Part shown: positions 9,101-24,345 of the stretch, piece after piece
How the letters are laid out: each line of letters starts with the position of its first letter
Position numbering within the stretch: position 1 is the stretch's first letter
Assembly (NCBI GenBank): GCA_030532825.1
Contig: JAUNKK010000004.1
Location: 23,556 to 87,555 of the forward strand
Direction: 5' to 3'
DNA length: 64,000 bases
From: Propionibacteriaceae bacterium
GTDB lineage: Bacteria > Actinomycetota > Actinomycetes > Propionibacteriales > Propionibacteriaceae
Position numbers and translations under genes: made by a program
Notes under the pieces: model-generated
The model's input: only the letters and a program-made list of their open reading frames with translations
Databases searched by the model: none
Told to the model about the DNA's origin: nothing

Positions 9101-9339
9101 AAACGGCGGCGGCCACCGTCGAAGTCGAACACGTAGAGGTCCTGATTACCGACGTCACCGGCCACGAAGGCGACCTGCCTGCCCGACGGCGAAAACCGTG
9201 GGCTGCGAACCGGGATCCGGTCGAAGGTGAGACGATGGGCTCGCCCACCAGAAGTGGTGGTTTGCCAGAGGTCATCGTCGGCTACGAAAACTACCTGGTC
9301 GCCGTGGACATGGGGGTAACGCAGATAGCCAGAGGTCAT
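6151..9339 (-). CDS. tri: Tricorn-type serine protease
   Basis: A 1,062-residue homologue of the archaeal tricorn protease, a large cytosolic peptidase that trims peptides released by energy-dependent proteases. Domains in order: a beta-propeller region (about 1-300), a second propeller (about 300-640), a helical core with Ser731-His732 in the TSHAYV motif, a PDZ domain (about 755-850), and a second core with the nucleophile Ser951 in YAASDGDIV. These match the Ser-His and Ser-Asp-Gly-Asp signatures of the Thermoplasma enzyme. No signal peptide. It is monocistronic, with a strong hairpin behind it, and lies next to clpX, which fits a role downstream of ClpXP; that link is inference. Confidence 0.93.
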   Translation of the reverse strand: MTSGYLRYPHVHGDQVVFVADDDLWQTTTSGGRAHRLTFDRIPVRSPRFSPSGRQVAFVAGDVGNQDLYVFDFDGGRRRLTWLSATRMQVSGWLDDGHVLLAAMHNEALRALSWLYSVSLEGDLERLPWGPGMAADRRGDGRVVLASPNFQGPEAWKRYRGGMANRVWVSDSRRRQWSRLLPDETASMAGPCWVGERVVFTSDLGAKVPEAAEEQAQVWSVTHDGRNLRAHTAHTFAEGYCRDATTDGRRVVYHARGRLYILDNLNEKPRPIPVTLGLGEPEPVTIAAGDRLETVAPDQGGDGSLVEWRGQAWFLTHRAGPARTLSGQPGVRVREVTVLGSSGKGIWASDVNGEDCLEIMPLDGDGDPLRIAQGRLGRVLALVANADGSKVAVGSHDGTVSVVDVALGSVKKVGRSTQGEATALVFSPCGRYLVWRDAVRAEGAFGRLVGYDLSEDSAFILTRGQFNDFCPTFSLDGKYLYLLSSRTIDPSYDEIGFDLGFTNTVRPYVIPLRAEDPVPFGPTADGWAISEDKPEPAEDDAKPESVVFDVAGAEDRMAPLPVPAGRYDALMATASGVAWRRLAPTMGVLGTGRLPEQEVKDSVEAFDLAKRKLVVLVEACDDVALSGDGRQLVVRNGDELWVQGSGSKAEEEDRIAVDATRLRRQQNPRDEWRQMFDENARLMRDHFWREDMDGLDWDRLCAGYRPLLEQITTHDELVDVLTEANAELNTSHAYVIAPDGPGEAKVAWLGAELRRNSKGEVAIQRILQGESSDPAARSPLRAAGVAAQPGDVIAAIDGQPTSKAPDVGALLLGAAGKPVELTLVRGRMKRRVAVVPVPSESAMRYHEWVASRVARVTKRSKGRVGYVHVPNMSANGWAEFHRLIDAASRCEAVVVDVRFNRGGHTSELVLERLMRTVVGWGYARHLDAPEPYPSQGMRGPVVFVTNPYAASDGDIVTAAAQNLDLGPVVGERSWGGVVGIDGRFELVDGTVVTQPRYGFAFYRQGFDVENHGTDPDIEVPLDPQDWESGEDLQLDVAVSEALARLKATPAAGAPDLPPPRFV

Positions 9340-9373
9340 GGGGCAAACCTACCCCAATGCTGGAGCTGCCTGC

Positions 9374-10657
9374 CTAAGCCGAGAGGTCCCGACGGCGAGC
9401 TACGCGCGCATGCCCCACCAACTCCGGGGTCCCCTCGCCGAGGACGGCCTCGCGGGTCACGACCACTTGAGCTACATCGTCAGCGGAAGGCACGTCGAAC
9501 ATGACGTCAAGGAGCAATTCTTCGAGGATCGCCCGAAGGCCACGTGCCCCGGTACCGCGCTCAAGCGCCAGGTCAGCGATGGCCCCCACCGCGTCGTCGG
9601 TGAAGTCCAGTTGGACGCCATCCAACTCGAACAGGCGGGCGAACTGCTTGGTCAGTGCGTTTCGCGGCTCGACCAGGATGCGCACTAGCGCGGCGCGGTC
9701 GAGGGGCGATACCGTCGAAATCATGGGCAGACGCCCGATGAACTCTGGGATCAAGCCAAACTTGTGGAGGTCTTCAGGACGCACCGCCGAGAAGGGGTCA
9801 ACCAGGTCTTTGCGGGCCGTCGAGTCAGTGCTGAAACCCAGGGGGCGCTTGCCCACGCGGGAGTTGATGATGTCCTCTAAACCTGCGAAGGCGCCACCGA
9901 CGATGAACAGCACCTTGGTGGTGTCGATTTGCAGGAAATCCTGGTGAGGATGTTTGCGGCCGCCCTGCGGCGGCACGGAGGCGACGGTGCCCTCAAGAAT
10001 CTTCAAGAGCGCCTGCTGCACACCCTCACCCGAGACATCGCGGGTGATCGACGGGTTTTCCGATTTGCGGGCCACCTTGTCGATCTCGTCGATGTAGATG
10101 ATCCCGGTCTCCGCTTTTTTGATGTCGAAGTCGGCGGCCTGGATCAGCTTGAGCAGGATGTTCTCAACGTCCTCGCCCACGTAGCCAGCCTCCGTCAAGG
10201 CAGTGGCATCAGCCATGGCGAAGGGCACGTTCAGCATCTTGGCGAGCGTCTGCGCCAAGTAGGTCTTGCCACAACCCGTCGGGCCGATGAGCAGGATGTT
10301 CGACTTGCCCACCTCAACTGGATCGTCGCCCTGACGCGTGCGCGCGGGCCGGGAGGCCTCTGAGGTGATGCGCTTGTAGTGGTTGTAGACCGCAACGGAC
10401 AGGGCCTTCTTGGCCGCATCCTGTCCAATCACGTACTGGTCAAGGAAGTCGCGAATCTCACGCGGTTTGGGCAGTTCCTCCTGCAAACCGATGGTCTCGG
10501 TACGCGGGAACTCCTCCTCAATGATCTCATTGCACAACCCGATGCATTCATCGCAGATGTAGACGCCGTCGCCTGCAATGAGGCGCTTCACCTGCTTCTG
10601 CGATTTGCCGCAGAAGTTGCACTTGAAGATCTCGCTGGTCTCGCCGATGCGCGCCAC
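9374..10657 (-). CDS. clpX: ATP-dependent Clp protease ATP-binding subunit ClpX
   Basis: Unfoldase that recognises, unfolds and threads substrates into the ClpP barrel. The 427-residue protein has the N-terminal zinc-binding domain (Cys13, Cys16, Cys35, Cys38), Walker A GPTGCGKT at 125-132, Walker [10 protein letters not shown], and the ClpX C-terminal domain with [17 protein letters not shown]. The start is GTG at 10655-10657 with a weak GTGGGAT site. It lies downstream of clpP2 in the same direction, separated by a strong inverted repeat that may lower or separate its transcription. Confidence 0.98.
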
Positions 10658-10705
10658 TCGTTATCCCACACTTTCCGTCAATTAACGACTGGGCACCAGC
10701 CTACC

Positions 10706-10741
10706 CGTCAGGGTGTCAACGCGCGGCACAACACCCTGACG
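10706..10741 (-). terminator. Stem-loop between clpP2 and clpX
   Basis: Perfect 11-bp inverted repeat CGTCAGGGTGT (10706-10716) / ACACCCTGACG (10731-10741) with a 14-base loop, 12 bases past the clpP2 stop in the direction of transcription. No T-run follows, so it may act as a partial terminator or an mRNA 3'-end stabiliser. Confidence 0.6.
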
Positions 10742-10752
10742 AGTTGACCAGT

Positions 10753-11397
10753 TCAGTTCTGAGCATCCTTCAAGGAAGTCAGGATGTCATCGACAATGCC
10801 GTAGTCAACCGCCTCTTGGGCGGTCAAATACTTATCGCGTTCGATATCGCGGCTGACCTTAGCGGCTTCCTGTCCCGTATCCTCGGCGAGCATGGTCTCC
10901 ATCAGCTCCCGGATCCTCAGGATCTCCTTGGCTTGAATCTCCAGGTCGGAGGACTGGCCGTAGCCGCCTTCGGTCGCCGGCTGGTGGATGAGGATACGCG
11001 AGTTCGGCAGCGCCAGACGCTTGCCCTTCGTGCCGGCCGCCAGGATCACGGCCGCCGCGGAGGCGGCCTGGCCCAGGCACACGGTCTGGATGTCGGGCTT
11101 GATGTAGCGCATCGTGTCGTAGATCGCAGTCAGCGCCGTGAACGAGCCACCGGGCGAGTTGATGTACATCGAGATCTGCCGCTCCGCATCCATGGACTGG
11201 AGGCACAGCAACTGCGCCATGACGGCGTTGGCGATCTCATCGTTGATGGGGGTGCCGAGGAAGATGATGCGGTCCTCGAACAGCTTGGTGTAGGGGTCGA
11301 CGCGGCGCACACCGTAGCTGGTGCGCTCTTCCCACTGGGGGATGTAGTAGTTCATGTCGAGCGAGGTGGGCGCGATGCCCTGGGGCAGGTTGGTCAT
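10753..11397 (-). CDS. clpP2: ATP-dependent Clp protease proteolytic subunit ClpP2
   Basis: One of two adjacent ClpP peptidases. Actinobacteria typically build a mixed ClpP1-ClpP2 tetradecamer that needs both subunits. The 214-residue protein has [19 protein letters not shown], catalytic Ser113 (GQAASAAAV), His138 (ILIHQP) and an Asp in ERDKYL (about 187). The ATG at 11395-11397 overlaps the clpP1 stop by one base (TGATG), so the two are co-translated. A longer frame to 11490 exists but lies inside clpP1. The N-terminus [18 protein letters not shown] is typical of ClpP2. Confidence 0.97.
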   Translation of the reverse strand: MTNLPQGIAPTSLDMNYYIPQWEERTSYGVRRVDPYTKLFEDRIIFLGTPINDEIANAVMAQLLCLQSMDAERQISMYINSPGGSFTALTAIYDTMRYIKPDIQTVCLGQAASAAAVILAAGTKGKRLALPNSRILIHQPATEGGYGQSSDLEIQAKEILRIRELMETMLAEDTGQEAAKVSRDIERDKYLTAQEAVDYGIVDDILTSLKDAQN

Positions 11398-11993
11398 CAC
11401 TGGTTCGGGGCCTCCGAGTTGATCTGGGACGCACGCTCGTAGACGTGGTCGATGAAGCCGTACTCGAGTGCTTGATCGGCTGTGAACCACCGGTCGCGAT
11501 CGGAGTCGGCTTCGATCTGCTCGATGGTCTGGCCCGTGTGCTTGGCGATGAGCTGAGCCATGGTCTTTTTGATGTGGAGCGACTGTTCTGCCTGGATACG
11601 GATGTCCGAGGCGGTGCCGCCGAGACCGCCCGAAGGCTGGTGCATCATGATTCGGCTGTGGGGCAGGGCGTAACGCTTGCCAGGAGTGCCAGCAGACAGC
11701 AGGAACTGGCCCATGGAGGCTGCTAGGCCCATGGCCACCGTAGCCACGTCGTTACTGATCCACTGCATGGTGTCGAAGATCGCCATGCCAGAGTCAACGG
11801 AGCCGCCCGGACTGTTGATGTACAGGTAGATGTCCGAGTGCGGGTCTTCGGCGTTGAGCAGCAGCATCTGAGCACAGATCGCGTTGGCGTTCTCGTCGCG
11901 AACCTCCGAACCCAGAAAGATGATGCGGTTGGCCAGCAGGGACGAGTAGACGTTGTCGGTCAATCCCAACCCTGCGCCCTGCGGCGCCGCCAT
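11397..11993 (-). CDS. clpP1: ATP-dependent Clp protease proteolytic subunit ClpP1
   Basis: Partner peptidase of ClpP2. From the ATG at 11991-11993 it is 198 residues, with [19 protein letters not shown], Ser93 (GLAASMGQF), His118 (RIMMHQP) and DSDRDRWF near the C-terminus. The start is uncertain: a GTG at 12020 would add nine residues, and neither start has a convincing Shine-Dalgarno. A further GTG at 12080 overlaps the stop of the upstream membrane-protein gene. I chose the ATG because its N-terminal length is close to mycobacterial ClpP1. A seven-base inverted repeat (TGTCGGT 12011-12017, ACCGACA 12033-12039) lies in the start region. Confidence 0.95.
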
Positions 11994-12072
11994 GGAGATG
12001 TCGTTTCGCTTGTCGGTCACGGCATACAAACTACCGACATTCCGCTGTTTTCCAAGGGCACACCCGCCAGGT

Positions 12073-13176
12073 TCACGCACCGGAAGTGTTCGGCTTCAGG
12101 TCGTCGCAGTCACTGGTGTCGACGGTGTCAGGGTCGGCAGCGATCAACGCCCCTACCCAGCGGGCCTTTGGATCGTTGTCGAGCAACAACGATTTCACCA
12201 TCAGCGTCAGCGGCAGGGCTAGCAGTGCCCCGAGGGGTCCGAAGATCACTGTCCACAGCAACAACGACAGGAACGAGACCACGGGCGTGACCCCTACGGC
12301 ATCGCCTGTGAACTTGGGCTGGATGATCGACTGGATCACGAAGTTCAAGACGCTGTAGGCCACCACCACGATGAGCGCCTCCCAGGGCCCCCGCTCAAAC
12401 AGGGCCAGCAGGGCAGGCGGCAACAGGCCCAGCACAAAGCCGATGTTGGGGATGTAGTTCGTGATGAAGCTGAGGATCACCCATACGAGCGGTAGCGGCA
12501 CCCCGACCAGTAGAAGCACCACGCCGTCGAGCACCGCGACGATGAGCCCGAAAACCGTGGTGACCAGCCAGTAGCGGCGAATGCCGCCCGCGAACGCCTC
12601 CAGGGAATGGGTGAAGCTCGGGTGAAGCCTGTCAGTGATCGCTAGGCGCTTGGCTACCGAAGGTAGATCGAAAACCATGAAGGCCATGCAGATCAGGACC
12701 ACGAGCAGCACGCCGGTAGCGCCCGAGATCTCCGAAACCACGTTGCCGACCACATCGATCACGCTGGTTGGCGAGACGGACTTCAGTTGCGCCAGCAACG
12801 CCATCTCGTCGAATCCGATGGAGGCCAGCAGATTGATGGCCTGGCGATAAAGGCTCATGAACTGCGAGTTGTAGCCCTGCAGCGAGGACACCATGGCGGT
12901 ACCACACCACACGAGCGCCCCCATCCCGATCACGAGGATGAGAAACATCACCAGCCCGGTGGCGGTGGCTGACAGTAGCCGCGGGACACGCCTACGATCC
13001 AACCACCGGTACAGCGGATAGGCAGTGATCAGCAGGTTGACGGCTAGAAAGGTTGGGGCGATGACCGAGCTGAGTTGCTTGAAGAGCCCCAGGGTGAGCG
13101 CGATGGCTCCCAAAACGATCGCCACCGTCCCAACGAGGGGCAGCTTCTGCATCCGTGGCTGGTCACCAGACCCCAC
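12073..13176 (-). CDS. AI-2E family multi-pass membrane protein
   Basis: A 367-residue integral membrane protein of the AI-2E/PerM family. It shows paired N-terminal helices ([36 protein letters not shown]), a long soluble segment (about 95-150), and a C-terminal block with the family motif [21 protein letters not shown] and [23 protein letters not shown]. Family members have been linked to export of small molecules, sodium/proton exchange or autoinducer-2, so function cannot be fixed here. It starts with GTG three bases after the trigger factor stop and sits between tig and clpP1, a place usually without a membrane gene. Confidence 0.85.
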
Positions 13177-15720: not shown

Positions 15721-16536
15721 ATGATGAATTCAACTGATCCACACCAGGGTGAAATCGTTCGAGCGCAAGGAATGCCCGATCCCCAGGGCCGCCGCCAGAT
15801 CATCGCCGAATACGTCATGGCCCACGGCGGCGCGCGCGTGGAATCACTGGCAACGATCGTCGGCGTCTCGGCAATGACTATCTATCGAGACGTCGCCAGC
15901 CTGGAGCAGGCGGGCATCGTGCGCCTGGATCGCGGGGTAGTCAATGCCGTCGCTACCAGCCTGAGCGAAGCCGACGCGGAGTTCCGGTTGCAGCAGAACC
16001 CACACAAGAAACGCGCGATGGCCGAGGTGCTCGCGCCGCGCATCTCCCCTGGCAGCTCGGTGATGATCGATGACTCGACGTCGGCCCTGTGGGTACTGCG
16101 CGCCTTGGCGGGAAGCCACCGCCTGACAGTCATCACCACATCTCTGCTCGTTGCAAACGAGGCAAAGAACATGGACGGGGTGCGGCTGCTCATGGCAGGT
16201 GGCGAATACGAGCCCTGGGCCCATGCCACCATGGGGCCGACGGCGGCGGCGAACCTGCGGGCCTGGCAGGCGGACTACTGCATCATGTCCGCCTCGGGCA
16301 TCGTCGGGAGGCGCTGCCAGCACCCGTACGAGAACGCCGTGCAGGTCAAACGCGCCATGATCGAGTCCTCGACCACCCGGTTCCTGATGATGGATCACAG
16401 CAAGTTCACGCGGAAAGCCCTCCATACGTTCGCCGAGCTGACCGACTTCGACGCCGTCGTGGTCGACCCCGAGACCCCGCAGCGGACCCGCGACGAGGTG
16501 GCCGGCTATGGGGTGGAGGTCCTCGTCTCCAGCTAG
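15721..16536 (+). CDS. DeoR-family transcriptional regulator of the adjacent sugar/polyol operon
   Basis: A 271-residue DeoR-type repressor. The N-terminal winged helix-turn-helix (RRQIIAEYVMAHGGARVESLA, SAMTIYRDVASLEQAGIVRL, about 24-75) is followed by the sugar-phosphate-binding DeoR C-terminal domain with VMIDDSTSALWVLRAL, LTVITTSLLVANEA and VQVKRAMIESSTTRFLMMDHSKF. Such repressors are normally released by a phosphorylated sugar from the pathway they control. It stands 109 bases upstream of an operon of kinases, an isomerase and a dehydrogenase in the same direction. The start is uncertain: ATG 15721 lacks a clear ribosome site and ATG 15772 is possible. Confidence 0.9.
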   Translation: MMNSTDPHQGEIVRAQGMPDPQGRRQIIAEYVMAHGGARVESLATIVGVSAMTIYRDVASLEQAGIVRLDRGVVNAVATSLSEADAEFRLQQNPHKKRAMAEVLAPRISPGSSVMIDDSTSALWVLRALAGSHRLTVITTSLLVANEAKNMDGVRLLMAGGEYEPWAHATMGPTAAANLRAWQADYCIMSASGIVGRRCQHPYENAVQVKRAMIESSTTRFLMMDHSKFTRKALHTFAELTDFDAVVVDPETPQRTRDEVAGYGVEVLVSS

Positions 16537-16573
16537 GGGCCTCCCACCGACCCGCCCTTGGTCCCCAAAAAAC

Positions 16574-16616
16574 ACAACAAAAACCCTGTTGTAATTCACA
16601 TCACGTCTGTTACGCT
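16574..16616 (+). promoter_or_regulatory. Candidate operator and promoter of the polyol-type operon
   Basis: Inverted repeat ACAAC (16574-16578) - N9 - GTTGT (16588-16592) in an A-rich stretch overlaps a possible -35 TTGTAA (16589-16594). A possible -10 TACGCT (16611-16616) follows after 16 bases. A GGAGAG ribosome site precedes the rpiB-like ATG at 16646. The layout suits repression by the DeoR protein encoded upstream; binding itself is inferred. Confidence 0.45.
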
Positions 16617-16645
16617 GCTGTCCCCACAAGGAAGTAGGAGAGAAC

Positions 16646-17107
16646 ATGGGTCTCACCGTCGTCGTAGGCGCCGACATCGCCGGCGTGAGTTACAAGGAAG
16701 CCCTCAAGCAAGATCTAGAAGCCGACCCGCGGGTTGAGCACGTCATTGATGTTGGCGTCGCTCCAGGCCAGGACGTCGACTACCCCCACGTGGCCGTCGA
16801 GGCGGCCCGGAAGGTAGCGGCTGGGGAGGCTGACCGGGCTCTGCTGGTGTGCGGTACGGGCATGGGCATGGCCATCGCAGCCAACAAGGTGCCCGGTATC
16901 CGCGCCTCGGTCGCCCACGACAGCTTCTCCGTGGAACGCCTCGTCCTGTCGAACAACGCACAGATACTCACGCTGGGCGAACGGGTCATCGGCCTGCAAC
17001 TCGCCCGGCGGCTAGCCAAAGAGTGGCTCGGCTACGCCTTCGACCCTGAGTCCTCGTCCGCCCCCAAGGTGGCCGCCATCCGCTCCTACGAACCCATCAC
17101 CCCCTAA
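16646..17107 (+). CDS. RpiB/LacAB-family sugar-phosphate isomerase, divergent
   Basis: A 153-residue isomerase of the RpiB fold: VVGADIAGVSYKEALK at the N-terminus, DYPHVAVEAARKVAAGEADRALLVCGTGMGMAIAANK with the catalytic-base cysteine in the CGTGMG loop, and GERVIGLQLARRLAKEWLG near the end. Aligned by eye to E. coli and mycobacterial RpiB, the conserved Asp-His of the first loop reads Asp-Ile here. The histidine that opens the furanose ring (before Asn-Asn/Asn-Asp) is serine in LSNNAQ. Loss of the ring-opening residue would suit an open-chain substrate such as a tetrulose phosphate. First gene of the operon. True ribose-5-phosphate isomerase activity is unlikely but not excluded. Confidence 0.85.
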   Translation: MGLTVVVGADIAGVSYKEALKQDLEADPRVEHVIDVGVAPGQDVDYPHVAVEAARKVAAGEADRALLVCGTGMGMAIAANKVPGIRASVAHDSFSVERLVLSNNAQILTLGERVIGLQLARRLAKEWLGYAFDPESSSAPKVAAIRSYEPITP

Positions 17108-17125
17108 CCCCTCAAAGGAACAACG

Positions 17126-18235
17126 ATGTTCAATCCAGACACCGCACACCTGTTGCTGGGCCTCATCGTCGCCATCGCCGGCGGTTTCTTCGGCGCCGCG
17201 ATCGGAGGTAACTTCGCCTTTGCCGTCACCGGCCTGACGGTCCTGACCGCCTTCGGTATCTATCTCGGCACCGACTCCACGGCGGGCTTCACCTATCTGG
17301 CCTTCGGACCCTTCGTCGGCCCCCACATCGCCTTCGCCGGTGGCGTTGGCGCGGCCGCCTACGCGGGCCGCCGTGGCTATGCCGACAGCAAGGACGCCAC
17401 TACCCCGTTAGCGCGGCTCGGGAAGCCCGACGTGCTGTGGGTGGGTGCTGCCTTCGGCGTGTTCGGCTACGTCGCCCAAAAGCTGGTCCTCCTCATCCCG
17501 TGGTTCGGAACCAACACCGACTCCGTGGCTTTCACGGTCGTGCTGTCCGCCATCGTCGCGAGAATCGTCGCGGGTGGCAATTTCCTCAACAAGGAGAAGT
17601 ACAACGACGCCAAGACCTTCATGGGCAAAATCGCCCCCACCGAGGATGCGGCCTGGCTGCGCTACCAGGAGAAGGGCCCGCAGTATCTCTCCCTCGGCGC
17701 CATGTTCGGGATTCTGGCCGGCGGCGCCACCCTGTTCATTGCCTTGTCCTTCCCCGGCCTAGCCGCAACCGGTAACGCCCAGACCTTCATGTTCGCGATT
17801 TCCGCGGTCTGCGTCATGTTCCTCATCCTGGGCGCCTCCATGCCGGTCACCCATCACATCACCATCAGCGCCGGCCTCGCTGCCATCGCCTTCCTGCCCG
17901 TGCTGGCAAGCAAGGTCGTCGAGTCCCTGCCGGGTGACGGGGGCTTCTGGCAGAAGCTGGACGCCAGCGGCTTCTCGATTCTGCCGGCACTCGACCCGGC
18001 GCACCCAACCTACGGGATCTTGTCCCAGGAGGCCATTGGGCAACTGCTGATCCTGTCGTGCGTAGCGCTTCTCGCGTCTGTCGCAGCCGGAATCATCGCC
18101 GCGTGGCTGGCCGAGTTCCAGGCCCGGCTGTTCCACAACCGCGGGAACACCCATTTCGACCCTCCGGCGGCAGCCATTTGGATCACCAACACCCTCATCG
18201 TGGCGCTAGCCGGCATCACTGCACCACTGTTCTAG
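17126..18235 (+). CDS. Unrecognised multi-pass membrane protein, probable transporter of the operon
   Basis: A 369-residue hydrophobic protein with roughly nine to ten membrane segments. It opens LLLGLIVAIAGGFFGAAIGG and LTVLTAFGIYLG, then has a loop with AYAGRRGYADSKD and a cluster of further helices (FVGPHIAFAGGVGAAAYA, VAFTVVLSAIVARIVAGG, YLSLGAMFGILAGGATLFIAL, ITISAGLAAIAFLPVLA, LLILSCVALLASVAAGIIAAWL). I do not recognise a characterised transporter family. It has a clear AAAGGA ribosome site, starts 18 bases after the isomerase gene and is the only membrane protein in the operon. An uptake role for the substrate is therefore a reasonable inference, not a demonstration. Confidence 0.7.
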   Translation: MFNPDTAHLLLGLIVAIAGGFFGAAIGGNFAFAVTGLTVLTAFGIYLGTDSTAGFTYLAFGPFVGPHIAFAGGVGAAAYAGRRGYADSKDATTPLARLGKPDVLWVGAAFGVFGYVAQKLVLLIPWFGTNTDSVAFTVVLSAIVARIVAGGNFLNKEKYNDAKTFMGKIAPTEDAAWLRYQEKGPQYLSLGAMFGILAGGATLFIALSFPGLAATGNAQTFMFAISAVCVMFLILGASMPVTHHITISAGLAAIAFLPVLASKVVESLPGDGGFWQKLDASGFSILPALDPAHPTYGILSQEAIGQLLILSCVALLASVAAGIIAAWLAEFQARLFHNRGNTHFDPPAAAIWITNTLIVALAGITAPLF

Positions 18236-18244
18236 GAGAAACCC

Positions 18245-19081
18245 GTGCACGCAACGGAGTTGCATCAGGCCTATGTCTTCGACCTCGACGGCACCATCTA
18301 TCTGGGCGATCACCTGCTGCCCGGTGCCGCCCGGCTGATTCAGGAATTGCGCCGACGCGACATCCCGGTGCGTTTCCTCTCCAACAATCCAACCAAGGAT
18401 CCTCAGCAGTACGTGGCCAAGCTCGAACAGCTCGGACTACCGACGGATATCTCCGACATTGCCAACACGGTGGTCACCACCACCCGCTGGCTGAAGGAGC
18501 ACCGGCCGGATGCGACGCTGTTCGTGGTGGGTGAGGCCCCCCTCAAGGGGGCCCTCACCCAGGCTGGATTCCGGCTCAGCGAGGATCCCACCGAGATCGA
18601 CATCGTGGTCGCCTCCTACGACCGCACCTTCGACTACCGCAAGCTCCAGATCGCCTTCGACGCCATCTGGGTGCATCGCCGCGCTGTCCTGATCCAGACC
18701 AACCCGGATCGCTTCTGCCCTTTCCCGGGCGGACGTGGTGAACCCGACTGCGCCGCCATCACGGCCGCCATTGAGGCCTGCACTGGCACAAAGTCGATGG
18801 TGAATCTGGGCAAGCCCTCCCCCATCATGCTGGAGGAGGCCCTCCGCGGTTTGAACGTCGACCCCACGCAATGTCTGATGGTCGGGGATCGACTCGGCAC
18901 CGACATCCAGATGGCCCTCAACACCGGAATGGCCTCGGCCCTCGTCCTCACGGGTGAGACGACAGCCGAGGACATCGCCGCCTTGGGCGAGGATCACCTA
19001 CCCACCTATGTACTCGACCGCATCGACCAGCTCATTCCCCAGCAGATCTGGGATGAGCTCGGCTGGAGCATCTCAGACTGA
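18245..19081 (+). CDS. HAD-superfamily IIA phosphatase (AraL/NagD-like)
   Basis: A 278-residue HAD hydrolase of subfamily IIA. Motif I VFDLDGTIYLGD holds both catalytic aspartates, motif II is FLSNNPTKD, the C2 cap spans about 80-190, motif III is the lysine of NLGKPSPIML, and motif IV is MVGDRLGTDIQMA. B. subtilis AraL, a member of the arabinose operon, is a promiscuous sugar-phosphate phosphatase thought to relieve toxic intermediate build-up. A similar safety-valve role here is inference. The GTG start follows AGGAGAAACCC. It lies between the membrane protein and the first kinase. Confidence 0.87.
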   Translation: MHATELHQAYVFDLDGTIYLGDHLLPGAARLIQELRRRDIPVRFLSNNPTKDPQQYVAKLEQLGLPTDISDIANTVVTTTRWLKEHRPDATLFVVGEAPLKGALTQAGFRLSEDPTEIDIVVASYDRTFDYRKLQIAFDAIWVHRRAVLIQTNPDRFCPFPGGRGEPDCAAITAAIEACTGTKSMVNLGKPSPIMLEEALRGLNVDPTQCLMVGDRLGTDIQMALNTGMASALVLTGETTAEDIAALGEDHLPTYVLDRIDQLIPQQIWDELGWSISD

Positions 19082-19090
19082 AAAGGATCA

Positions 19091-20656
19091 ATGATGACCG
19101 ACAACACCTACCTCCTGGGCATCGACTTCGGGACCGAAAGCGTCCGGGCCGCTATCTTCGACCTGGCTGGACGCCCCATCGCCTTCGCCGCAACGGCGTA
19201 TCGCACCACCCATCCTCATCCCGGCTGGGCGGAACAGGACCCGAACGAGTGGTGGGAGGCGCTGCAGGCCTCCTGTCACAAGGTGATCGCAGCCTCCGGA
19301 GTGTCACCCTCCACCATCAAAGGCATCTCCTACGACGCCACCACCATGACGGTCGTCGCCATGGACAAGCGCGGCGAAGCGCTGCGGCCCGCCATCATGT
19401 GGATGGATGTGCGGGCCACCGAGCAGGCGGCCCGCGCCGAAACCTCTGACTCAGTGGCCCGGCTCTACAATGGCCAGGGCACGGCCCCTGCCACCGCCGA
19501 ATGGTATCCCTTCAAGGCCGCATGGCTGCGCGAGAACGAGCGCGAGACCTACGACACGGCTTCTCGGCTGGTCGATGCCCCCGACTGGGTCACATACAAG
19601 CTGACTGGCGAATGGACCACCAACATCAACTCAGCAGCGCTGCGGATGTACTACAACCGCGACCATGGCGGCTGGCCCGTCGACTTCTACGAAACCATCG
19701 GCTGCGGGGATGTTTTCGACAAGATCCCGGAGAACGTGGTTGATCTTGGAACCCCCGTCGGAGAGCTGTCCGTGATTGCCGCGCAGCTACTGGGGCTACG
19801 CCCCGGCACCCCCGTCGCACAGGGCCCTGCTGACGCCTGGGCCGGCCAGATCGGGCTGGGCGTCGTCGAGCCGGGCGTGATGGCCCTCATCACAGGCTCC
19901 TCCCATGTCCTCACGGGCCAGACAGACAAGCCCATTCACGGCAAAGGCTTCTTCGGCGCCTACACCGATGGCGTGGTCAAAGGGCAGTACACCGTCGAGG
20001 GCGGGCAGGTGTCCACGGGTTCGGTGCTCAAGTGGTTCAAAGACAACTTCGCCCGGGATCTGGTGCAGGCGGCCGAAGTGACCGGCCTCAACGTCTATGA
20101 CCTGCTCAACAAGCAGTCCCGGGATCTACCGCCTGGCTCGGACGGCCTGATCATTAACGAGTACTTCCAGGGCAACCGCACCCCCTACACCGACTCAAAG
20201 GCCCGCGGAATCGTCTGGGGTCTGTCGCTGCACCACGGCCCCGCCCACATTTACCGCGCTATCCAGGAGTCGGTGTGCTACGGCACCGCCCACAACCTAC
20301 GCGCCATGTCGTCGGCTGGGTTCGAGGTGAAGAAGATCGTCGCGGCGGGTGGCGCCATCAAGAGCCGCGACTGGATGCAGATGCACGCCGACGTGACGGG
20401 GGTGCCGATCGCCTTGACGGAGGTCGGCGACGCGGTGGTGCTCGGCAGTTGCATGCTCGCCGCTGTCGGCGCGGGCCTGTACCCGGACCTGGGAGCCGCG
20501 GCGGCGAACATGGTGCACGAGATCGACCTGCTGGAGCCCAACCAGCAGCGCCACGAGGAGTACCAGTACTACGTGGACGCCTACGCCAACACATATCCCC
20601 AACTGCAGCCCATGATCCATGACATGGTGGATCATCAGAACGCCAAGCGAGGCTGA
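19091..20656 (+). CDS. FGGY-family carbohydrate/polyol kinase
   Basis: A 521-residue ATP-dependent kinase of the FGGY family. The N-terminal ATP loop is LLGIDFGTESVRAAIFDLAG, the substrate half has AIMWMDVRATEQA and DAPDWVTYKLTGEWTTNINSA, and the C-terminal half has the family signature IKSRDWMQMHADVTG and DAVVLGSCMLAAVGAG. Family members phosphorylate glycerol, xylulose, ribulose, erythritol or ribitol. Subfamily and substrate cannot be read reliably by eye. It is followed at four bases by an AraM-type polyol-phosphate dehydrogenase, so its product may be a polyol phosphate. Two ATGs (19091, 19094) follow AAAGGA. Confidence 0.9.
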   Translation: MMTDNTYLLGIDFGTESVRAAIFDLAGRPIAFAATAYRTTHPHPGWAEQDPNEWWEALQASCHKVIAASGVSPSTIKGISYDATTMTVVAMDKRGEALRPAIMWMDVRATEQAARAETSDSVARLYNGQGTAPATAEWYPFKAAWLRENERETYDTASRLVDAPDWVTYKLTGEWTTNINSAALRMYYNRDHGGWPVDFYETIGCGDVFDKIPENVVDLGTPVGELSVIAAQLLGLRPGTPVAQGPADAWAGQIGLGVVEPGVMALITGSSHVLTGQTDKPIHGKGFFGAYTDGVVKGQYTVEGGQVSTGSVLKWFKDNFARDLVQAAEVTGLNVYDLLNKQSRDLPPGSDGLIINEYFQGNRTPYTDSKARGIVWGLSLHHGPAHIYRAIQESVCYGTAHNLRAMSSAGFEVKKIVAAGGAIKSRDWMQMHADVTGVPIALTEVGDAVVLGSCMLAAVGAGLYPDLGAAAANMVHEIDLLEPNQQRHEEYQYYVDAYANTYPQLQPMIHDMVDHQNAKRG

Positions 20657-20659
20657 TAC

Positions 20660-22039
20660 ATGAGCGAACTCATTGCCCAAGCCCTCTCGGAAGCCACCGA
20701 TACGAAGGCAGTCGTCCTCGGCGAGGGCGTCATCGCCCGCGTGGGGCAGGTCTTCAAGGAACTGTTCGGCGCCTCCCAGGCCGTCGTCGTCGCCGATGAA
20801 CGAACCTTCGAGTTGGCAGGACGGCGCGTCTGTGAAGCCCTGGCCGAGGCCGGGGTGGCGCTGGCGACACCGCATGTCTTTCCCGGCGAACCGGAACTCT
20901 ACGCCCGTTACGAAAACTGCGAGGCGCTTCGAGACGTCCTGGCCGGGGTCGACGCCGTGGCCGTGGCCGTCGGGGCGGGCACGCTAAACGACATCGTCAA
21001 GCGCGCCTCTGGTGAACTCGACCGCCCCTACCTGGTGGTCGGGACTGCCGCTTCCATGGATGGCTACACAGCTTTCGGGGCCTCCATCGCCCTCGACGGG
21101 TTCAAGCAAACCCTGAGTTGCCCCGCGCCCTGCGGTTGCGTCGCCGATGTCACCGTGATGGCGGCGGCACCGCAGGTGATGACGGCCTCCGGATACGGGG
21201 ATCTGCTCGGGAAAGTCCCCGCCGGAGCGGACTGGATCATTGCTGATGCTCTGGGGACGGAGGCCATCGACGGTGGCGTCTGGGAACTGGTGCAGGGCCC
21301 GCTGCGGGGCGCGCTTGCCCGGCCCGCGGACCTAGCCGCTGGTGATGTCACCGCCACGACGGGGCTAGCTGAGGGGCTCCTCATGAGTGGTCTTGCCATG
21401 CAAGCCCACCAGTCCAGCCGCCCCGCCTCGGGGGCCGAGCATCAGTTCAGCCACCTCTGGGAGATGGAAGGGCACGGCGTGGATGTCACTCCGCGACGCC
21501 TGTCGCACGGCTTCAAGGTGGGCATCGGGTCGGTGGCCATCGCCGCCCTCTATGAGCGTCTGCTGGAGCGTGATCTCACCCGACTTGATATCGATCAGGC
21601 CGTGGCGGCCTGGCCAACTCGGGAGGCTATGGAGGCTGAAGTCCGTCGGCTCCATCCAGACCCGAAGCTCGTGGAGGAGACTGTTGTCCAGGCCCTGGCG
21701 AAGTGGCTGACCCCGGACGAACTGCGGTCGCGGCTGACGCTGCTCACCCGCGTCTGGCCGGAACTGGCGAGGAAGTTGCGGGACCAGTTGCTCCCCGCCG
21801 CCGAACTACAACGGATGCTACGCGCCGTAGGTGCTCCAGCACACCCATCGGACATTGGCCTGGGTTGGCGGCGGTTCCGCGACACCTATGTTCGTGCTCA
21901 GATGATCCGCAAGCGCTACACCGTGCTGGATCTGGCCCTGGAGGCCAACCTGTTGCCAGAACTGGTGGACGAGTTGTTCACTCCCACCGGGTTCTGGGGC
22001 TCCCAAGAACCAACCGAGTCTTCTAAGGAACTGTCATGA
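20660..22039 (+). CDS. AraM/EgsA-like polyol-phosphate dehydrogenase
   Basis: A 459-residue member of the iron-containing alcohol dehydrogenase-like group that holds B. subtilis AraM (NAD-dependent glycerol-1-phosphate dehydrogenase). Features are VAVGAGTLNDIVKRAS (nucleotide binding), GTAASMDGYTAFGASIALDGFKQT, YGDLLGKVPAGADW, and metal-binding histidines in SGAEHQFSHLWEM and LSHGFKVGIG. It would oxidise a polyol phosphate to a ketose phosphate or the reverse. It is longer than AraM by about 60 residues, mainly in the C-terminal helical part. It ends in an ATGA overlap with the next kinase. The chirality and chain length of the substrate are unknown. Confidence 0.88.
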   Translation: MSELIAQALSEATDTKAVVLGEGVIARVGQVFKELFGASQAVVVADERTFELAGRRVCEALAEAGVALATPHVFPGEPELYARYENCEALRDVLAGVDAVAVAVGAGTLNDIVKRASGELDRPYLVVGTAASMDGYTAFGASIALDGFKQTLSCPAPCGCVADVTVMAAAPQVMTASGYGDLLGKVPAGADWIIADALGTEAIDGGVWELVQGPLRGALARPADLAAGDVTATTGLAEGLLMSGLAMQAHQSSRPASGAEHQFSHLWEMEGHGVDVTPRRLSHGFKVGIGSVAIAALYERLLERDLTRLDIDQAVAAWPTREAMEAEVRRLHPDPKLVEETVVQALAKWLTPDELRSRLTLLTRVWPELARKLRDQLLPAAELQRMLRAVGAPAHPSDIGLGWRRFRDTYVRAQMIRKRYTVLDLALEANLLPELVDELFTPTGFWGSQEPTESSKELS

Positions 22040-23703
22040 GCAAAACCGTCATCGGAATCGACTTCGGGACGCTGTCCGGACGGGCTGTGGTCGTGGCTGT
22101 GAGCGACGGCCAGGTGTTGGGCAGCGCCGAGCACGCCTATCGGCACGGCGTCATTGATCGCGAGTTGGCTGGCCAGCCGTTGCCGCCCGACTGGGCACTG
22201 CAGGTGCCGGCCGATTACGTCGAAGTGCTGGGGAAGGTGGTACCGGCGGCCCTCACGGACTCGGGAGTGGACCCGTCGAGCGTTGTTGGGCTGGCCATCG
22301 ACTTCACGTCCTGCACCGTCTTCCCCACGGACATGGACTACGAGCCACTATGCGAGAAACCAGAGTTCCGGGAGCGGCCGCACGCCTACGTGAAGCTGTG
22401 GAAGCACCACGCCTCTCAAGCGCAGGGCCGGATCGTCAACCAGGTGCTGGCTGAGAAGGCACCGGAGACCCTGACCCGCTACGGCGGTGAGGTGTCGGCG
22501 GACTGGCAGCTGGCGAAGGCTCTGGCTGTGTTCCAGGAAGACCGCGAGGTTTGGGACGCCACGGCGCATTTCGTGGAGGCCGGGGACTGGATCGTGCAGC
22601 GTCTGACGGGGAAGCTGACGGGCGCCAGGTCGCTGGCCGGATATAAAGGCAACTTCGTGGACGGCGCTCATCCGGCGCCTGAGGTGCTGGAAGCCATGGC
22701 CCCCGGGTTCTCAAGGCTGCTGGACATCCTGCCGGAGCCGACGGCGCACCCCGGCGACAAGGTCGGTGAACTGACAGCTGAGGCCGCGGACTTGACTGGC
22801 TTGCCTGCCGGGATCGCGGTGGCCGCCGCGAACATCGACGCCCACGCTACGGTGCCGGCAGCTAATGCCTGCGAGCCGGGGCAGTTGACGCTTATCATGG
22901 GCACCTCCACCTGCCACATGATGACCTCGGAGAGTTTCGGCGAGGTGCCAGGAATCGGCGGCATCGTCCCCGACGGCATCGTGAAGGGGCTGTGGGGTTA
23001 CGAAGCCGGGCAAGCCGGGGTCGGTGACATCTTCGGTTGGTTCGTGAACACGTGTGTCCCGGCGGAGTATGTCGAAGCTGCTGCTGCTCACGGACTTGGG
23101 GTGCATGAATACCTGACCGAGCTGGCGGCTGCTCAGGAGGTGGGCGAGCACGGCCTGCTGGCCCTTGATTGGCACTCGGGCAATCGTTCGATCCTGGATG
23201 ACACCGAGTTGACGGGTCTGATGGTAGGCACGACTCTGACAACGACCCCTGAAGATCAATACCGGGCGTTGCTGGAAGCAACAGCCTTCGGCACCCGCGT
23301 GATCATTGAGTCTTTTCGGAAGGCTGGGGTCGAGGTGGGTGACCTGGTGATCGCCGGGGGCCTAGTGAAGAACCCGTTGCTGATGCAGATTTACGCGGAT
23401 GTCACGAACCTTCCCCTTGCTATCTGCGAGTCGGTGGCCTCGGGCGCCCACGGATCGGCCATCTATGCCGCTGTCGCGGCTGGCGAGTACGCGGACGTGC
23501 GGGAGGCCGCCCCCAGGATGGCGAGCCGCGAGGCAAGTTCAGAGACGACGTTCACCCCAATCCCAGAGAACGTCGCCGCCTATGATGCGCTGTACCGCGA
23601 GTACCGCACCCTTCACGACTACTTTGGTACGGGAAGCAACGAGGTCATGCACCGGCTCAAGGCACGCAGGCGAGAGATCCTCATCGCCAAAGCCTCCAGC
23701 TGA
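22036..23703 (+). CDS. AraB-like ribulokinase family kinase
   Basis: A 555-residue FGGY kinase of the L-ribulokinase type. It opens VIGIDFGTLSGRAVVV and carries the AraB hallmarks LAIDFTSCTVFPTD, KLWKHHASQAQ, GDWIVQRLTG, GTSTCHMM, WGYEAGQAGVGDIFGWFV, LDWHSGNRS, IESFRKAGVEV and GGLVKNPLLMQIYADV. The L-ribulokinase family also accepts ribitol, L-arabitol and other ketoses. No araA isomerase or araD epimerase is in view, so the classical L-arabinose route is not encoded locally. Last gene of the operon, followed by a stem-loop. It has a four-base overlap with the dehydrogenase gene. Confidence 0.9.
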   Translation: MSKTVIGIDFGTLSGRAVVVAVSDGQVLGSAEHAYRHGVIDRELAGQPLPPDWALQVPADYVEVLGKVVPAALTDSGVDPSSVVGLAIDFTSCTVFPTDMDYEPLCEKPEFRERPHAYVKLWKHHASQAQGRIVNQVLAEKAPETLTRYGGEVSADWQLAKALAVFQEDREVWDATAHFVEAGDWIVQRLTGKLTGARSLAGYKGNFVDGAHPAPEVLEAMAPGFSRLLDILPEPTAHPGDKVGELTAEAADLTGLPAGIAVAAANIDAHATVPAANACEPGQLTLIMGTSTCHMMTSESFGEVPGIGGIVPDGIVKGLWGYEAGQAGVGDIFGWFVNTCVPAEYVEAAAAHGLGVHEYLTELAAAQEVGEHGLLALDWHSGNRSILDDTELTGLMVGTTLTTTPEDQYRALLEATAFGTRVIIESFRKAGVEVGDLVIAGGLVKNPLLMQIYADVTNLPLAICESVASGAHGSAIYAAVAAGEYADVREAAPRMASREASSETTFTPIPENVAAYDALYREYRTLHDYFGTGSNEVMHRLKARRREILIAKASS

Positions 23704-23766: not shown

Positions 23767-24345
23767 TCAGTCGATGCGTTCCAGGAACTCGAGTACGTGG
23801 GTCAGCACCTGTCCGGTTGCCTTGGCGTCGTATTCGGGTCGACTGCTGTCGGTGAAGAGGTGGCTGGTGCCGGGATACAGGAAGCACTCAAGGTTGGTGT
23901 GGCTACTCGCCACCTCCTCCGCCGCAACGATGTCCCCGTCCTCAAGGGCAAACGGGTCAGCGTCCATGGTGTGGTACTGCACGGGGATTGAGTCGGGCCA
24001 CTGCCCCGGTAACAGTTTTGGGGCTCCGAATCCGTGCAGTAACACCCCGCCGAGAGCCTCGGCGGAGGTCTGCAGCAGCCCCTGAGCCGCCATAGCCCCC
24101 ATCGAGAAGCCGGCGTAGACAACCCGTTGGGGCAGCGACTCGGCCGAGGTCAGGGCTCGCTGGGTGATGGTGTCGAATCCGATCTCTTTCGCATTGCCGA
24201 GGGCTGCATCGTAGGCGTCGAAGGTTTTGCCCTCCAACTGATCGGGCGTGTGCACGATGTGCCCGGCGGCCCGGAGCTGGTCGGCGAAAGCTTCCACTCC
24301 TGGGGTCAGCCCCAAGAGATGATGGAATAGCACGATCTCCGTCAT
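23767..24345 (-). CDS. Dienelactone-hydrolase-like alpha/beta hydrolase
   Basis: A 192-residue single-domain alpha/beta hydrolase close in length to the DLH family: EIVLFHHLLGLTPGVEAFADQLRAAGH, nucleophile elbow YAGFSMGAMAA, acid in MDADPF and the catalytic His in PGTSHLFTD. Classical dienelactone hydrolases use a cysteine nucleophile, but here the elbow residue is serine. This points to an esterase or general carboxylic-ester hydrolase rather than a dienelactone enzyme. It stands alone, convergent with the kinase operon. Substrate unknown. Confidence 0.82.
   Translation of the reverse strand: MTEIVLFHHLLGLTPGVEAFADQLRAAGHIVHTPDQLEGKTFDAYDAALGNAKEIGFDTITQRALTSAESLPQRVVYAGFSMGAMAAQGLLQTSAEALGGVLLHGFGAPKLLPGQWPDSIPVQYHTMDADPFALEDGDIVAAEEVASSHTNLECFLYPGTSHLFTDSSRPEYDAKATGQVLTHVLEFLERID

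Follow-up and report, generated by a model that had tools for sequence, protein, structure and literature searches.

A widespread propionibacterial operon with AraM-like, FGGY-kinase and RpiB-like genes as a candidate for erythritol breakdown

Background

We studied seven genes that lie in a row at positions 15721-23703 of a stretch of 64,000 nucleotides from a Propionibacteriaceae genome (contig JAUNKK010000004.1 of assembly GCA_030532825.1; the whole stretch is called here the window). They encode a DeoR-family regulator, an RpiB-like isomerase, a membrane protein, a HAD-IIA phosphatase, an FGGY kinase (hereafter FGGY1), an AraM-like dehydrogenase and an AraB-like kinase, and the question they raise is which compound such a set would break down. 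A preliminary description of the window had placed seven open reading frames here, all of which are found at their positions and on the plus strand, and had proposed a polyol route in which the compound is taken up, phosphorylated by the FGGY kinase, then oxidized by the AraM-like enzyme and finally isomerized by the RpiB-like one. This route fits the comparative evidence given below (phosphotransferase-associated paralogues, RpiB clade) and is largely supported by it, the substrate being only a best guess. We see an even chance that the operon encodes proteins that import and degrade a small sugar alcohol, erythritol being the most likely one, by way of a polyol phosphate and a ketose phosphate to D-erythrose 4-phosphate; our best guess for the next candidate is ribitol. 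Erythritol and ribitol thus stay the best of the four substrates named earlier, the others being threitol and arabitol. Added here to that description are the wide distribution of the operon, the identity of the membrane protein (DUF7973), the AraM paralogues next to genes of a sugar-alcohol phosphotransferase system (PTS), the apparently optional nature of AraB/AraD and the tie between the phosphatase and the AraM-like gene.

Conservation and organization of the gene set

The gene set recurs in other genomes far beyond chance. An alignment of 41 DUF7973 proteins was used to scan genome contigs; it returned 439 relatives, and the best 80 were kept as loci of up to about 21 kb each. Loci with a HAD-IIA gene plus an AraM-like gene, FGGY1 or both were called operon-type, and they numbered 53 among these best 80 of 439. 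DUF7973 and HAD are present in all 53 by construction. The other genes of the row were frequent (AraM-like 51, FGGY1 48, RpiB 45, AraB 37 and DeoR 36 loci), and additional genes were transketolase, a GpsA-like gene and AraD (17 loci each), a SorC-type regulator (12) and DhaK (5), with TIM in none; contig ends cut some of the loci, and absences there are upper bounds. The GpsA-like gene, which recurs at three of the six PTS loci described below, has no explanation in the pathway proposed here. All six genes that follow DeoR were present in 32 of the best 80 loci. In 29 of these, RpiB to AraB share one strand and follow each other as in the window; the remaining three (L017, L027, L054) have FGGY1 upstream, on the opposite strand. 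The order of these six genes does occur elsewhere, the preliminary description having suggested a search for the seven-gene order. The hosts were Cutibacterium, Acidipropionibacterium, Propionibacterium, Arachnia, Micropruina, Actinomyces, Schaalia, Varibaculum, Winkia, Mobiluncus, Arcanobacterium and their kin.

In the window, the first gene encodes the DeoR-family regulator (15721-16536; PF00455, DeoRC, 136.7 bits; PF08220, 32.6 bits). A gap of 109 bases separates it from RpiB, and the next five joints measure 18, 9, 9, 3 and -4 bases, the start of AraB overlapping the stop of the AraM-like gene by 4 bases. Because of this tight spacing, the last six genes (RpiB to AraB) very likely form a single transcription unit. 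Scans for promoters (no site against 1.4 expected) and terminator-like elements (one against 4.3 expected) were uninformative, and the gaps before DeoR and RpiB contained no inverted repeat and one direct repeat (two copies, 10 bases). A dienelactone-hydrolase-family gene on the minus strand (23767-24345) is convergent with the end of the operon.

Related clusters were also found on plasmids. Two Rubrobacter plasmids carry, clustered together, FGGY, DhaK, HAD-IIA, AraM-like, RpiB, FGGY and GpsA- or glycerol-3-phosphate-dehydrogenase-type genes, and the R. radiotolerans proteins are 64% (HAD-IIA), 61% (AraM-like), 47% (RpiB) and 49% (one FGGY) identical to those of the window. On rhizobial plasmids, an AraM-like gene (about 30% identical) adjoins HAD-IIB, FGGY and SorC-type genes. 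Judging from these clusters, the theme of dehydrogenase, phosphatase and kinase reaches beyond the DUF7973 loci. In Sinorhizobium (L144) and Rhizobium (L145), the AraM-like/HAD-IIB/FGGY/SorC-regulator set is accompanied by an ABC transporter, and L145 also has GlpD, giving two dehydrogenases of opposite handedness next to a phosphatase.

The AraM-like dehydrogenase and the HAD-IIA phosphatase

The AraM-like protein (20660-22039) matched Fe-ADH_2 (PF13685, 111 bits) and reached 158 bits on the NAD(P)-dependent glycerol-1-phosphate dehydrogenase model, below its cut-off of 413. Residues D181, H261, H265 and H283 were invariant in seven sequences, and the Asp and His positions align with those of solved enzymes, the Asp and two His positions being presumably metal ligands. 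Among the 198 genomes of the window's family, 84 had an AraM-like match (E 1e-30, paralogues counted), and the window's own genome had two. The second copy (contig C83, 48-49% identical) ends the row GutM, SrlA, SrlE, SrlB, AraM-like, in which SrlA (285.7 bits, cut-off 150) and SrlE (510, cut-off 400) exceed the glucitol-PTS cut-offs, while GutM and the IIA unit match their models with scores below the cut-offs. This glucitol-type PTS operon (L114, 1878-8834) also has a large regulator and a GpsA-like gene.

The glucitol-type PTS set (SrlA, SrlE, SrlB, GutM) was present at six of 12 further AraM-like loci (L114, L117, L119, L123, L147, L148), with the AraM-like gene of L123 on the opposite strand from the PTS genes; RpiB and AraB had no match in these six. 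Adjoining the PTS/AraM-like operon of two genomes (G018, L148; G035, L147) there is a divergent HAD-IIA gene, 74-76% identical to that of the window. No PTS match was obtained at the other six loci: L121 and L150 have a different FGGY kinase (the AraM-like match of L150 being split in two pieces), L151 a HAD gene and a weak SorC-type match, L149 a HAD gene followed by the contig end, and L124 nothing that was recognized. The sixth, L122 (genome G121, of the window's own family), has genes of the AraM-like, glycerol-kinase-like, RuBisCO-like and TIM-like types next to one another at 7883-13135, a stretch without a DUF7973 match.

A PTS brings in a polyol already phosphorylated, so that an AraM-like enzyme downstream of a PTS is expected to act on a polyol phosphate. 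In the window, DUF7973 and FGGY1 occupy the place that the PTS holds in those loci, and for this reason the best interpretation of the AraM-like enzyme is that of a putative polyol-phosphate dehydrogenase.

The HAD-IIA protein (18245-19081; AraL/NagD type) exceeded the cut-off of the HAD-IIA subfamily model (126, cut-off 100) and remained below that of TIGR01457 (159, cut-off 247.65); it is predicted to be a sugar- or polyol-phosphate phosphatase. The phosphatase travels with the AraM-like gene: HAD was present in 79 of the 84 family genomes with an AraM-like gene versus 25 of the 114 others (Fisher 2e-26, uncorrected), and within 10 kb of it in 53 of the 79.

The RpiB-like isomerase

The RpiB-like protein (16646-17107) matched LacAB_rpiB (147 bits) and passed the actinobacterial model TIGR02133 (179.3, cut-off 168.2); together with AraB on TIGR01234 (see below), it is one of only two of the seven proteins above a curated equivalog cut-off. 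Its scores on the DerI model (144.7, cut-off 240) and the RpiB equivalog (112, cut-off 138.65) were both below the cut-offs. The DerI and actinobacterial models nevertheless gave higher scores than the RpiB equivalog, the reverse of what was seen for the other RpiB of the genome. This housekeeping rpiB is located at 1495-1953 of L001 (contig C143), between apparent elongation-factor genes (the end of EF-G, and EF-Tu).

In a tree of 63 rows, the operon RpiBs joined RpiBs of Arthrobacter and Streptomyces plasmids (support 100/99), which are 62-69% identical and adjoin a gene of the dihydroxyacetone-kinase family. The same clade includes two copies from Streptomyces whose neighbors are aminotransferase and radical-SAM genes; these plasmid loci (L127, L128), perhaps natural-product clusters, also have nucleoside-phosphorylase genes. 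The RpiBs of the Rhizobium ery-type cluster and of the Rubrobacter plasmids fell outside. Judged by these members and outsiders, the clade is neither restricted to tetritol enzymes nor the home of all tetritol-type RpiBs. LerI has been reported to convert L-erythrulose 1-phosphate to D-erythrulose 4-phosphate, and DerI to convert D-erythrulose 4-phosphate to D-erythrose 4-phosphate (PMC10733421). The window's RpiB shares a clade with DhaK-linked RpiBs, yet it is below the cut-off of the DerI model, whose name points to rhizobia; we predict it to be a D-erythrulose-4-phosphate isomerase.

The DUF7973 membrane protein

The membrane protein (17126-18235) belongs to DUF7973 by the PF25928 label precomputed for its relatives. 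A Pfam search with it gave no useful match at E values up to 10 and also missed two relatives that bear the label, so this search seems blind to the family. The structure model was confident. Foldseek found nothing at E 0.001 against the PDB, nor did a fold search in viral proteins at the same E value; in a second look, the ten best matches were urea transporters, with Mep2, Amt1 and AmtB at ranks 13-15, the likeness being weak. The modelled fold thus weakly resembles urea channels, and we predict a channel-like facilitator for small polyols. DUF7973 adjoins glycerol-kinase-like and GlpD-like genes in L074 and L082. The literature search returned nothing linking erythritol with DUF7973.

Other settings of the family were observed. 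In Microbacterium, Mycolicibacterium and Herbiconiux (L043, L048, L049, L051, L057), DUF7973 diverges from genes of the glycerol-kinase-like, HAD-IIA and AraM-like kinds; a TIM-like gene is nearby, as are GlpD-like and RuBisCO-like genes in some, and this is possibly another tetritol cluster. In L076, L077, L081 and L062 it lies near bacterial-microcompartment genes (identified by family search for EutJ in L081 and an aldehyde dehydrogenase in L076, and by cluster only for the rest), which suggests a role there as polyol or diol facilitator.

The two kinases and the araA/araD question

FGGY1 (19091-20656; FGGY_N/FGGY_C, PF00370/PF02782), the predicted polyol kinase, scored below every listed NCBIfam cut-off, with the ribulokinase, xylulokinase and pentulose-kinase models near level (282, 275 and 266 bits), and shares 24% identity (79 bits) with the FGGY kinase found in a Rhizobium ery-type cluster. 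The AraB-like kinase (22036-23703), predicted to be an L-ribulokinase or related ketose kinase, exceeded the TIGR01234 cut-off (662.5 versus 583) and also matched PRK04123.

That araA and araD are missing, as had been stated in the preliminary description, is correct for araA in the window's own genome (no match in an assembly 97.5% complete; control matches in 5/14) and for araD in the window. One AraD-like frame lies elsewhere in the genome (contig C82) and appears to end early; an ascorbate-type, sugar-acid-like cluster surrounds it (L125/L083, about 3900-5810 of L125), broken or misassembled. The presence of araA, TIM and DhaK was tested in 16 genomes picked for having AraM-like and HAD genes, and araA was not found in 11 of them (the window's own and 10 more), which disfavors a role in L-arabinose use. 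Across the operon-type loci, AraD was present in 17 of 37 with AraB and in none of 16 without it (Fisher 8e-4, kinship not corrected), a pattern suggesting that AraB and AraD form an optional module. AraB is consequently more likely an L-ribulose kinase than a second polyol kinase, the earlier proposal having been a related ketose or polyol as its substrate, and since araA is lacking in the 11 genomes, such a module would need L-ribulose that does not come from L-arabinose.

The operon in Propionibacterium freudenreichii

The methylmalonyl-CoA mutase of genome G120 is identical over 727 residues to PDB entry 1req, which we take to be the P. freudenreichii protein, and the genome was on this ground taken as P. 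freudenreichii. It carries, in one direction, DhaK, TIM, DeoR, RpiB, DUF7973, HAD, FGGY1, AraM-like, AraB and transketolase genes at 2.39-2.40 Mb, with an SDR-like frame on the other strand between DeoR and RpiB. Its araA is distant, at 0.728 Mb (G120:C1:728357), beside an AraD-family gene (G120:C1:727603).

According to the parts of a 2015 paper available to us, all 21 P. freudenreichii strains fermented erythritol and adonitol and none D-arabitol, the pathways for the two polyols could not be reconstructed, araA lay at 0.757-0.768 Mb, and the two araB, araM and araL genes found near 2.414 Mb were assigned to L-arabinose use (PMC4437456). In gene content and map position that araBML locus matches the G120 operon, and it is very likely the same operon as that of the window; the RpiB, DUF7973, TIM and DhaK genes there go unmentioned in those parts of the paper. 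Our literature search found nothing on an operon joining AraM, FGGY and RpiB. The term undescribed, used earlier for the operon, was nearly right, the exception being this listing of two araB, araM and araL as accessory arabinose genes. Fermentation of erythritol, adonitol and both arabitols is reported for all Acidipropionibacterium strains tested (PMC6920887, table note). A 1968 paper on erythritol breakdown in P. pentosaceum, known to us from citing reference lists, names L-erythrulose 1-phosphate in its title, and cleavage of erythrulose 1-phosphate has been suggested for that species (PMC10733421).

The 16 genomes mentioned above contained one TIM in nine cases, none in G000 and two or three in six. 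In G120, the operon has an additional TIM next to it; in G118 and G117, such a TIM is ~17 kb and ~22 kb away from the AraM-like gene, respectively; the extra TIMs of the three genomes of group g2 (apparently Acidipropionibacterium) are either far off or on a different contig. In G118 (L155, 11066-18154), DhaK, TIM and a second RpiB (39%) are near the operon among apparent sugar-acid catabolism genes. A one-protein DhaK was present in all 16, and its distance to the AraM-like gene is at most 12 kb in six (G120, G117, G118, G001, G002, G005); that of the window's own genome is on contig C52, away from the operon.

Proposed pathway and alternatives

In the pathway that we favor, DUF7973 would let erythritol in, FGGY1 would phosphorylate the end that gives D-erythritol 4-phosphate, the AraM-like enzyme would oxidize this to D-erythrulose 4-phosphate, and RpiB would isomerize the latter, the direct substrate of DerI-type RpiBs, to D-erythrose 4-phosphate. 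This product would enter the pentose phosphate pathway, where the linked transketolase of some genomes would assist, and the HAD phosphatase would drain surplus phosphates. As worked out by hand, the handedness of the sn-glycerol-1-phosphate family, to which the AraM-like enzyme belongs, would fit the D-erythritol 4-phosphate end, and that of the GlpD-type EryB of Brucella and rhizobia the other. Free L-ribulose would enter as D-xylulose 5-phosphate through AraB, joined by AraD in the loci that have it, suggesting a second substrate of pentitol origin, for example ribitol. We regard D-erythrulose 4-phosphate as slightly more likely than L-erythrulose 1-phosphate to be the product of the AraM-like enzyme. 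Oxidation away from the phosphate is favored by the counts for TIM (0/53 operon-type loci) and RpiB (45/53), L-erythrulose 1-phosphate being a product for which a TIM-type isomerase would also be needed. The carbon that we assume to be oxidized is opposed by three points, all in favor of the one next to the phosphate: the precedent of the AraM-like family, the title of the 1968 paper and the TIM that adjoins the operon in P. freudenreichii. A bolder form of the proposal is that propionibacteria have a mirror-end erythritol pathway, with the end opposite to Brucella's phosphorylated, a dehydrogenase of the archaeal-lipid (sn-glycerol-1-phosphate) family, DUF7973 as a new urea-channel-like family of polyol facilitators, and AraB/AraD added for ribitol; taken as a whole, this is tentative and rather doubtful.

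A main substrate of the pentitol kind, such as ribitol, would explain what the phosphatase and AraB/AraD do in the absence of AraA: FGGY1 would form D-ribitol 5-phosphate, the AraM-like enzyme L-ribulose 1-phosphate (oxidizing the carbon next to the phosphate), HAD-IIA L-ribulose, AraB L-ribulose 5-phosphate and AraD D-xylulose 5-phosphate. The stereochemistry fits when followed by hand, AraD occurs only with AraB (17/37 versus 0/16, Fisher 8e-4, kinship not corrected), AraB is above the TIGR01234 cut-off with no araA in 11 of 16 genomes, HAD is tied to the AraM-like gene, and adonitol was used by all 21 P. freudenreichii strains (PMC4437456). Such a relay, however, leaves RpiB (45/53 loci) without a role; HAD, FGGY1 and the AraM-like gene are kept together in 12 of the 16 AraB-less loci, the window has no AraD match, and the only AraD-like frame of the assembly appears to end early, so that we consider it unlikely. 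Very improbable, too, is a reverse run in which the AraM-like enzyme and HAD reduce and dephosphorylate a ketose phosphate and the polyol exits via DUF7973 as an electron sink: the dehydrogenase-phosphatase pair does recur beside varied neighbors and a channel would work both ways, but two kinases, or elsewhere an uptake PTS, stand beside the pair.

We give only the slimmest chance to an accessory L-arabinose locus, the place assigned to araBML in P. freudenreichii (PMC4437456), even though AraB, AraL-like and AraM-like genes stand together as in B. subtilis; araA is absent from the window's own genome and 10 more of the 16, the P. freudenreichii araA lies elsewhere with an AraD-family gene, and RpiB and FGGY1 would be unexplained. 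An arabinose operon as the principal function was rejected for want of araA. It is equally improbable that the AraM-like protein is a plain sn-glycerol-1-phosphate dehydrogenase in a locus for glycerol phosphates or lipids. Its best family match is indeed glycerol-1-phosphate dehydrogenase and the metal-ligand positions are kept, but 158 bits is far from the cut-off of 413 and the gene is tied to a polyol PTS, RpiB and pentulose-type kinases.

If erythritol is the substrate, the operon would supply the missing genes for a propionibacterial fermentation studied since the 1960s, and testable genes for an old gene-less pathway of a common sweetener, which P. freudenreichii, a harmless bacterium used in food, makes open to experiment. 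The proposal predicts a role for a dehydrogenase family not linked to erythritol in the literature consulted here, suggests one for DUF7973 and puts the arabinose label of P. freudenreichii araBML in question. Were it true, the choice between the two ends of a symmetric polyol would be set by two enantiomer-specific dehydrogenase families.

Comparison with known systems

In the ery pathway, an FGGY kinase, a polyol-phosphate dehydrogenase and RpiB feed D-erythrose 4-phosphate. The Brucella/rhizobial ery operon (EryA, EryB, EryC, TpiA2/EryH, RpiB/EryI, EryD) has a kinase, a polyol-phosphate dehydrogenase and RpiB in common with the window, whose RpiB is 49% identical over 108 residues to the copy of R. 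leguminosarum, in a cluster interpreted as ery on the basis of gene order. The ery operon has a GlpD-type EryB and an ABC transporter, and the window instead the AraM-like enzyme and DUF7973; Rhizobium proteins of the GlpD (EryB), EryC and TIM (TpiA2) types had no tblastn match in the 64-kb window at E 1e-3. A plain Brucella-type erythritol operon was rejected, given these missing types and a kinase only 24% identical. EryA has been described as confined to Alphaproteobacteria (PMC3245297). With three defining genes missing and a kinase of another branch, the operon would work like an erythritol operon, yet not one of the Brucella/rhizobial kind.

A likeness to the tetritol pathways of M. smegmatis (EltD, LerK, LerI, DerI; PMC10733421) lies in the clade of the window's RpiB, which includes DhaK-linked RpiBs, in a comparison that included no M. 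smegmatis sequence. The window's pathway would differ in phosphorylating the polyol before its oxidation. A LerK-type (DhaK) kinase and a LerI-type TIM had no match in the window, and both adjoin the operon in P. freudenreichii.

The B. subtilis operon is araABDLMNPQ-abfA. AraB, an AraL-type HAD-IIA phosphatase and an AraM-type dehydrogenase stand together in both systems, and the L-ribulokinase model is passed here; the window adds RpiB, DUF7973 and a second kinase and is without araA (in the genome) and araD (in the window). With the Gut-type PTS polyol operon (contig C83 and genomes G018, G035, G059, G001 and G087), the likeness is in the AraM-like enzyme, which would oxidize a polyol phosphate in both; there a PTS stands in place of DUF7973 and FGGY1, with the GpsA-like gene beside three of the six.

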